From: Eubacterium sp.
GTDB taxonomy: Bacteria; Bacillota; Clostridia; Lachnospirales; Lachnospiraceae
DNA length: 64,000 nt
Direction: 5' to 3'
Assembly (NCBI GenBank): GCA_017433825.1
Contig: JAFRGL010000016.1
Span: 115,697 to 179,696, forward strand
Of the stretch, positions 32,278 to 64,000 are shown piece by piece. Under the pieces are notes generated by a model. The model was not told the origin of the DNA and made no database searches. It was given only the letters and a program-made list of their open reading frames with translations. The translations under genes and the position numbers were made by a program. Each line of letters begins with the position of its first letter. Within the stretch, counting starts at the first letter, position 1.

Positions 32278-32300
32278 TGCATCTTCCTCCTAAAAAATAA

Positions 32301-32641
32301 CAGGCAGGGCGGTAAGCCGGGTTCTGTCGTGTGTAATCATCTGTCTAGGACTGCGGTTGCCCGCAGCCTCAAGCGGCCTACCCGGAGACGCGGCGGGCCG
32401 CCGCATGGTCCCCTGTTTGGCCTTGCTTCGGATGGAGTTTACATATGCCCGCTGCCGTTACCGGAGCGGCGGTAGTCTCTTACACTGCCTTTTCACCCTT
32501 ACCCGCAGAATGCGGGCGGTTGTTTTCTGCTGCACTTGTCCTGGGGTTACCCCCGCCGGACGTTATCCGGCATCCTGCCCTGTGAAGCCCGGACTTTCCT
32601 CACCCGGAATTGCTTCCGGCCGCGATTACATGCCCTGCCTG
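32301..32641 (-). ncRNA. rnpB: RNase P RNA (class A)
   Basis: About 341 bases. The ends CAGGCAGGGC and GCCCTGCCTG form helix P1. The universally conserved parts are present in order on the minus strand: GAGGAAAGTCCGGGCTTCAC, the AGGATGCCGG stretch, GTGCAGCAGAAA, and near the 3' end AGATGATTAC followed by ACAGAACCCGGCTTA. It is the catalytic subunit that trims tRNA 5' ends. A perfect promoter precedes it and TTATTTTTTA follows it. Confidence 0.97.
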
Positions 32642-62563: not shown

Positions 62564-63376
62564 TCAGAGTATGATTTCCATGCCGGAATACATCTGTTCC
62601 ACGGAAAGGTCCGGATTGTCCTGCAGCAGCGATACGGCCTTTTCACCTGTGCAGTGGCCGGTAATAATCCGCTCAATGCCCAGCTTCGCAAACCGTTCCG
62701 CCAGTGCCTTCACTTCATCATCCGGTGTCTGGAACAGGTGCATGCCGCCCAGGTACGCGTAAACCTTCCTGCAGGGAAGGGTTTCCGTCACTTCATACAC
62801 GATGTTTTCCACGCCGCCGTGGGAACAGCTGTTGAAAATGACAAGTCCTTTTTCCGTATCGAACACCAGGCTCTGCTCATGGGCGAAGCCGTCGGGAACA
62901 AGCTCCGTGCCGGATTTAATGTAAAGGCCGCCCTTCTTTCCGATTTCTTCCAGGTTTTCCGTCTTGTGCGGAATCAGGAACACGCCCGGAAACAATTCGT
63001 AGTCCCCGGAAACATAGGCAATCCGCTCCTTGTATTTCTCGAGGAAATCCTTCGCAATGCCGATATAGCGTTCGCCCCTGTCGTCTATGCCGTAGCAGTT
63101 TTCCTTTGAGCCGGCCCGGATATACAGAAGCGCGTTCCGGTTCACCTCCAGAAAAGCCGCCAGGCCGTCTGCGTGGTCATAGTGGGCGTGGGAAAGCACC
63201 GCGAAATCCGCCTCTGCCAGGTTGATACCGCATTTTTCCGCATTTTCCGTAATTTTCCCGGTTGCGCCGCCGTCCAGCAGGATCTGCCTGCCCTCATATT
63301 CGATATAAAAAGAAAGGCCCCATTCACCGGCGCATTCGCCGTGGGCGATATTGTCAATCAAAACCGTAACTTTCAT
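62564..63376 (-). CDS. Metallo-beta-lactamase fold hydrolase
   Basis: The 270-residue protein has the HxHxDH metal motif LSHAHYDHADG (His63, His65, Asp67, His68), a GECAGEWGLSFYIEYEG N-terminus, and further His at FNSCSHGG and the end (ITGHCTGE). This is the 7,8-dihydropterin-6-methyl-4-(beta-D-ribofuranosyl)-aminobenzene 5'-phosphate synthase-like/MBL-fold group; the true substrate is unknown. A 16-base perfect palindrome (GGCTTTGCGCAAAGCC, 62540-62555) follows the stop codon and may act as its terminator. Confidence 0.85.
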   Translation of the reverse strand: MKVTVLIDNIAHGECAGEWGLSFYIEYEGRQILLDGGATGKITENAEKCGINLAEADFAVLSHAHYDHADGLAAFLEVNRNALLYIRAGSKENCYGIDDRGERYIGIAKDFLEKYKERIAYVSGDYELFPGVFLIPHKTENLEEIGKKGGLYIKSGTELVPDGFAHEQSLVFDTEKGLVIFNSCSHGGVENIVYEVTETLPCRKVYAYLGGMHLFQTPDDEVKALAERFAKLGIERIITGHCTGEKAVSLLQDNPDLSVEQMYSGMEIIL

Positions 63377-63448: not shown

Positions 63449-63602
63449 GACAAATACAGTGAATGCACCGCGGAGTATCATCTTTCATTAACCGGTAACA
63501 CACAATCTTCGTGTTCTGAATCATATAGATGTAGAATCTTCTGTTTTCTGCAGAATCAACCGGCTGAACCGGCCGTAGGTCGTTTCGCAGGAAGAAATAT
63601 AC

Positions 63603-64000
63603 CGAATATTCGAAGCCCGATTTCGGGTACCGCTCGAAGAGGGCCAGTTCTGTTGATCACAACTGTCCCTCTCTCGCTCGGAAACCTGGCATGGTAAGCG
63701 CAGTTTCCGCCCCTCATCGGTCTTCTCATCTTCGGTATTTCTTCACTGCTCACTCCAATACGGCCTCGTTCAGCTCAGTTGATTTCCTGCCGCAAACCTC
63801 CAGCTTTGGGGCCCGGTCCGGGAACTGCAAAGTATCCGTACCGGCAGAAGGATTAGGCCGGGATTGGAGTGAAGCCCATGAAAAATACAGCTGCCGGAAA
63901 CGGCTGATGAGGGGCAAAAAGTTGCTTCCGAGCAATTCTTTTTGAGGCCTGCTGAGGCGAGTTGTCATCAGAGAACTCGTCGAATCAGGCCGGTACCCGA
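63603..64000 (+). ncRNA. Candidate large structured RNA, truncated by the window end
   Basis: No credible gene; the short frames on both strands have no ribosome sites or conserved motif. Six perfectly nested complementary pairs: 63623-63632/63991-64000, 63709-63718/63906-63915, 63750-63759/63863-63872, 63761-63766/63855-63860, 63787-63792/63842-63847, 63804-63808/63828-63832. Local hairpins: 63639-63649/63661-63671, 63680-63685/63703-63708, 63893-63904 with a GAAA tetraloop, 63947-63951/63986-63990, 63956-63963/63974-63981. A G-T pair in the last and the GAAA loop favour the plus strand. Family not recognised. Confidence 0.5.

Follow-up and report, generated by a model that had tools for sequence, protein, structure and literature searches.

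Long DNA palindromes that often occur as inverted pairs form a multi-copy family in genomes of Lachnospiraceae

The Correia/NEMIS, RUP and ERIC elements are bacterial MITEs. The parvovirus-type terminal hairpins, which have a long stem with small tip hairpins and occur in inverted pairs, resemble the element described here in outline alone. EFAR is likewise a bacterial MITE, and published REPs are 20-40 bp long and end on one side in GTAG or CGTC (PMC3733652). In the same text, REPs are found mainly in Proteobacteria, downstream of genes and frequently as inverted dimers, and the stems of GTAG REPs often contain G-T pairs (PMC3733652). A second source describes strand-specific binding of TnpA-REP to folded single-stranded REPs, mediated by the GTAG motif, with a bulge also involved in E. 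coli (PMC8266576). Arm-to-arm templating, or template switching, has been described for RNA hairpins (PMC8794818).

Here, we describe a family of long DNA palindromes with a unit of about 230 nt, which is present in multiple copies in several genomes and often forms an inverted pair around a linker. Like REP, BIME and REPIN elements, the palindromes occur in many copies between genes, downstream of them and often as inverted pairs; such pairs were found in G000, G103 and G178. Asymmetric motifs at the hairpin foot (here in genome G032) and conserved unpaired bases in the stem are also shared with REPs. The element works like a REP in its placement, its pairing and its conserved unpaired bases. 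Unlike REPs, the units are about 230 nt or longer and carry tip hairpins, and their stems are variable in G032; neither GTAG nor CGTC was found in the published place. Because the size and the tag both depart from the REP definition, we do not file the element as a REP. The ends of the G032 copies (CCA before one arm and GTCC after the other) stand in the opposite order to the CGTC...CCA of REPs, on the assumption that the REP tag is given with its 5' end leading.

The family was recognized from one copy at the right edge of the window, the 64,000-nt stretch of DNA analyzed here, which lies on contig C16 of a 2.6-Mb genome (G000, hereafter the own genome). The first-pass annotation had placed a large structured RNA at 63603-64000, with nested long-range pairs and a GAAA hairpin, and both are indeed present in the letters: the outermost pair joins TCGGGTACCG (63623-63632) to CGGTACCCGA (63991-64000), and GCCGGAAACGGC forms the hairpin with the GAAA loop. 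That pair was said to reach the window edge, and it does; position 64000 is also the last base of contig C16, and the window copy is therefore incomplete. The interval holds the structure as described, while its limits needed revision, since the element begins at about 63540 and continues beyond 64000. The parts of the window copy are listed in Table 1. Its left unit was recovered by the covariance model (R1 match G000:C16:179253-179479, minus strand, 211 bits), of which it was itself one of the 16 source sequences (aligned as WL in alignment A3). BLAST aligns its right unit, at 94% identity, with positions 2-160 of the corresponding right unit (226 nt) in a full copy, L010. By eye, similar GC-rich linkers are found in the copies of a congener. 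The short frames on both strands (ORFs of 65-84 aa) were again judged spurious by eye. The G-U pair that had been taken as evidence for the plus strand does not carry this weight, because the complement is nearly as stable (-171.3 versus -173.1 kcal/mol).

Table 1. Parts of the element copy at the right edge of the window (window positions)
Feature	Position	Strand	Evidence
Left unit, imperfect palindrome in inverted orientation	63541..63790	-	Covariance-model match 63557-63783
Linker GC hairpin GCTTTGGGGCCCGG...CAAAGT joining the two units	63803..63833	.	Sequence; separate hairpin in the fold of a full copy
Right unit of the same family, clipped by the contig end	63840..64000	+	BLAST
Long-range nested pairs, left unit pairing with right unit (alternative fold)	63623..64000	.	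MFE, 57 inter-unit pairs

We then calculated fold energies for the window stretch and for full copies. The 398-nt stretch folds at -173.1 kcal/mol, whereas 100 dinucleotide-shuffled versions gave -131.2 ± 5.8 (z = -7.2) and not one of them was as low. The energy as such is not unique in the window, where 4 of 320 sampled 398-nt stretches reach -166.8 to -170.0. The full copy L010 spans about 540 nt, from about CGGCATAATC to TTCTGCCGG, and consists of two imperfect palindromes of about 230 nt that flank a GC hairpin in inverted orientation, the left unit being a diverged reverse complement of the right one. It folds at -252.7 kcal/mol (-181.0 when shuffled) as two separate units, and a global fold between the units loses by 11 kcal/mol (-241.6). 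For window positions 63603-64000 the global inter-unit fold is ahead by 38 kcal/mol, and for the fuller stretch 63536-64000 by only 9 kcal/mol; the nested fold is thus favored in the window because the right-hand unit is truncated. On these predicted folds, the nested pairs of the first-pass annotation arise where the two units of an inverted pair base-pair with each other. The unit itself consists of a long stem with some conserved, non-complementary internal loops (GAG/GAA and UUGGAGYAA/GAARCGACC) and of tip hairpins, and an inner hairpin is bordered by an A-run and a T-run. The unpaired motifs AGCTGATGA and CACAGCGAA and an ATCA hairpin loop are conspicuous by eye across units; since the mean identity over all unpaired columns of a 28-unit alignment is 0.47, this conservation is limited to particular motifs. 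Solitary right-type units also exist (L018, L020, L024, L025 and others), and two copies (L012 and L027) lack internal modules.

BLAST analysis of the element against its own genome gave 23 places, corresponding to 20 loci with 71-100% identity (one place matched only non-element DNA, and two were second pieces of copies already counted). Twelve of these loci are internal to contigs. The remaining eight reach a contig end, as expected because repeats break assembly, and some of them may be halves of a single copy. Over 61 genomes, BLAST matches were confined to the own genome and one congener, whose copies were placed by an exact pattern in the MAG RUG14126 ('uncultured Lachnospiraceae'), a genome that we take from its isolate name to be of rumen origin. 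The covariance model built from 16 units, with at most 15 candidates scored per genome, detected the unit in six of 150 Lachnospiraceae genomes (G000, G032, G103, G178, G063 and, weakly, G127), with inverted pairs of the same polarity in G000, G103 (five) and G178 (one). A second, class-wide model, insensitive with its six candidates scored per genome, matched G000 alone among 341 genomes. Single blastn queries for plasmid and for phage carriage gave no match, one exact pattern gave none in viral contigs, and a largely open-access literature search found no description of this palindrome family.

At the congener site that corresponds to L018, both flanking genes are present and the element is absent. 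The L017 site is not a clean empty site, because just the upstream gene matches and is then followed by a terminator-like hairpin. Of the identities that had been suggested for the structure, a mobile intron or element RNA was right in direction as regards a mobile element, since the copies are numerous, lie at unrelated loci and are missing from one orthologous congener site; a group II intron or HEARO-type RNA was rejected for want of an Rfam match. Nor is it a known RNA class: Rfam 15 returned nothing in the window stretch at E≤5 or at the gathering level, and for seven complete-unit loci only one chance-level match (mir-994, 28 of 93 bits). The hammerhead ribozyme has a CUGANGA...GAAA core, a three-way junction and an NUH cleavage site. 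This candidate was also rejected, as CUGAUGAG...CGAAA makes better sense as a 3x3 loop enclosed by CUGAU/AUCAG, which varies to CCGAU/AUCGG, and the core letters vary among copies with partial compensation and again lack an Rfam match.

In its own genome, the element is located at the 3' ends of genes. Among the 12 copies with both flanks on the contig, eight are flanked by two convergent genes, each with a Pfam match (L010, L018, L019, L020, L022, L024, L026 and L027), and one by codirectional genes (L013), and a flank was assigned on one side only in L017, L023 and L025; a rough ORF call for the window gave convergent neighbors in 5 of 58 cases. At least one neighboring ORF ends within 61 nt of the element in all 12 copies. 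In the other genera, 21 of 30 scanned neighboring ORFs match Pfam, with varied chromosomal functions. Upstream of the L023 element, inspection by eye showed direct repeats that carry GGGGGAGAA-like motifs (about 440-840). The gene nearest to the window element encodes a metallo-beta-lactamase-fold protein (62567-63376, minus strand), the start of which faces the element. A gene start as the known neighbor of the window copy differs from the gene-end siting, and counts against the explanation that we prefer below.

The frequency of convergent genes and the nearby ORF ends speak for a cis-acting bidirectional terminator or 3'-end stabilizer that is retained by the host between convergent genes, as do the A-run and T-run around the inner hairpin and the terminator-like hairpin that the congener has after the L017 upstream gene in the element's stead. 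A terminator leaves the dispersal, the inverted pairing and the long perfect arms unexplained, however, and the congener L018 site shows by eye no hairpin in place of the element, while the L027 copy itself comes after a terminator-like hairpin. We regard such a function as an unlikely account of the family, and it may instead be a secondary role of the element.

To characterize the pairing across genomes, 28 units from six genomes in five genera were aligned. Two-sided changes occurred at 43 of 46 pairs; paired cells amounted to 88.4% (61.8% when shuffled, 40-48% when slid), and the covariation score was 0.646 (0.189 and 0.12-0.16, respectively). The conserved structure in homologues that the first-pass annotation had looked to is therefore strongly supported by two-sided changes in five genera. 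Such very strong covariation, together with the conserved internal loops, favors a structured non-coding RNA, trans-acting or ribozyme-like, that is expressed from many loci. As a control we used 25 RNase P RNAs from the same bacterial family (26 before removal of a truncated G027 locus). One of the 25 is a class A RNase P RNA within the window itself (32297-32641, minus strand, 325 bits).

A functional RNA is expected to show G·U far above A·C on one strand. In the 28 units, the ratio of G·U to A·C cells was 45:34 of 1260 (complement, 47:33), so that across genera A·C is nearly as common as G·U, whereas the RNase P control gave 245:12 of 2247; its complement still gave 199:43, and the choice of structure thus accounts for part of the G·U excess. 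The alignments from the own genome do favor G·U (A1, 32:5; A3, 44:11; complements, 33:9 and 47:17), and an initial tally of mismatches in 38 units came to 43 G·U and 26 A·C, with 18:3 in the 11 right-type own-genome units among them. The unit's own strand gives the deeper fold in 19 of 28 units. A G·U share based on MFE folds did not discriminate (3.0% in the 28 units, 5 of 107 in RNase P). Among changed pairs, wobbles were less frequent in the units (6.5%) than in RNase P (25.4%), and one-sided mismatches more frequent (22% versus 7%); the two-sided share (53% versus 56%) was not above the control. The units therefore differ from RNase P by scarce wobbles and not by a surplus of two-sided changes.

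The excess of G·U in the own genome, the deeper fold of the own strand, a two-sided share no higher than in RNase P and the preference of the fuller window copy for the global fold by only 9 kcal/mol are all on the side of an RNA. Against it stand the near-equality of A·C and G·U across genera, the opposite strands of the two units in the long form, the absence of an Rfam match, and arms in G032 that run far outside the core and differ from copy to copy. The proposal of a new structured RNA is left unsupported by the lack of an RNA-like strand preference across genera and by the opposite orientation of the units, and we consider an RNA product an improbable explanation.

The arms were most informative in G032, in which 12 of 14 matches were compared at their ends (the partial copy L201 and one other were omitted). 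The outer arms of the 12 copies extend far past the core, over 50-87 nt with at least 93% matching positions, and are perfect in three copies (52/52, 54/54 and 74/74). For the 45-nt stretch of one arm that flanks the core, the mean identity between seven copies was nevertheless 51% (maximum 64%), compared with 47% for shuffled sequences; the same comparison for five G178 copies gave 53% versus 50%. Asymmetric end motifs (CCA/arm...arm/GTCC) were found in 11 of the 12 copies, L200 being the exception, and in one of the 11 the motif is reversed relative to the core; they are absent from five G178 and two G063 copies.

We also counted two-sided and one-sided differences between paired copies; the one-sided figures also contain loop positions, and the 6-37 positions per pair without symmetry in either copy were set aside. 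The ratio was 48:8 for L119/L104 of G032, 25:13 for L110/L127, 18:19 for L116/L120, 8:8 for L106/L112 and 0:8 for L114a/L122, and an unbiased count for L115/L130 gave 19:10 (the two-copy RNAalifold count of 19:0 is biased by the choice of pairs); two own-genome pairs gave 2:8 and 2:9. In the G032 copy L130 (= L199), the outer loop, normally non-complementary, has been overwritten: the right half is a copy of the left across it, and the halves match. The stem of this copy is a perfect palindrome as far as the tip hairpins, with the usual loop asymmetry overwritten. We read these patterns as probable arm-to-arm templating in G032. The signal is strong there, while pairs from G000 and G103 show it weakly or not at all, possibly because the copies in the latter two are older and decaying. 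As in template-switched hairpins (PMC8794818), reverse-complement copying of an arm would yield two-sided changes without wobble intermediates; unlike those hairpins, the present case lies inside a dispersed repeat family and is clear in one genome only.

The variable arms also bear on whether the family could be a classical MITE, whose terminal inverted repeats would be the binding sites of a DDE transposase that moves it by cut-and-paste. Like bacterial MITEs, the element is short, non-coding, dispersed and adjacent to genes; its inverted termini (CGGCAGAA/TTCTGCCG) and the internal-deletion derivatives L012 and L027 fit this description. Unlike MITEs, it has a much more elaborate structure and arms without fixed sequence in G032, and because the arm sequence varies between copies, little fixed end sequence is available within the arms for binding. 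In addition, no target-site duplication was noticed by inspection, with a single clean empty site for comparison. We find a classical MITE very doubtful.

We propose, with moderate confidence, that the element is a REP/MITE-like non-autonomous mobile hairpin with arm-to-arm templating, which spreads as folded single-stranded DNA. In this scheme, an HUH/Y1-type enzyme acting in trans, for which RAYT is the leading candidate, would recognize the hairpin foot and the conserved loops, and one arm would at times be copied onto the other by template switching or fold-back synthesis. The stem sequence would then be free to vary while the arms change in step, because an arm is sometimes copied onto its partner. 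The build-up between convergent genes would reflect tolerance, perhaps with use as a bidirectional terminator. The absence of the unit from eight RAYT loci, a genome with RAYT-size genes and no element, and templating that is clear in G032 only are points against the mobile hairpin. So are the other repeats that flank RAYT genes, the weaker RAYT association once a fragmentary match is set aside, the target-site duplication that was not noticed, the two-sided share no higher than in RNase P, the G·U lean of the own-genome alignments, the deeper fold of the unit's own strand, and an end motif missing from the G178 and G063 copies. A stronger form, in which an undescribed class of bacterial mobile element copies as a folded single-stranded hairpin and with every move resynthesizes an arm on the template of its partner, is rather unlikely; if true, the stems would be hypervariable yet perfectly paired, with the enzyme-binding loops and end motifs fixed.

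If replication of a hairpin is the correct explanation, the Lachnospiraceae would gain a REP-like element of large size and elaborate structure, along with a fast-turnover system for testing how REP-like palindromes spread. The family also supplies a naturally occurring example of two-sided 'covariation', commonly regarded as proving a functional RNA, for which mutual templating of DNA arms is the better explanation; this is relevant for RNA searches that rely on covariation.

Finally, we analyzed RAYT as the candidate mover. RAYT-size Y1-type transposases are encoded in G000, G001, G032, G063 and G103, and G010 has two RAYT-size genes with no element match; five tested proteins scored 48-74 bits against NCBIfam REP_Tyr_transpos, under the 80-bit cut-off. 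As in the REP/RAYT system, element and enzyme tend to co-occur: a RAYT match was found in five of six element-positive genomes and 35 of 144 element-negative ones (Fisher p = 0.005, on the assumption that the unit and RAYT searches used the same draw of 150 genomes). The G178 match is a fragment with a stop, and p = 0.044 without it; three of the five positives supplied rows to the query profile, and the G000 protein is near-identical to another row. Around RAYT genes, the unit was found at E≤1 in none of eight loci, which speaks against RAYT genes as direct carriers; the link is therefore one of correlation, on which RAYT is the leading candidate. Unlike in the REP/RAYT system, the flanks of the RAYT genes here contain other repeats. 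By eye, the unit ends CGGTTCTTCTGCCGG resemble these RAYT-flanking repeats ACGGTTCTTTTGTCAC. The G103 copy L103 is nested within inverted GGGACGGTTCTTTTTGACACA repeats, which are like repeats beside the RAYT genes of G103 and G001. Two species share a RAYT-like gene region with 99.8% identity over 816 nt (L058, 2554-3369; L059, 1891-2705), which lies directly downstream of a sequence that resembles a tRNA by eye; this identity may reflect either recent transfer or mis-binning.
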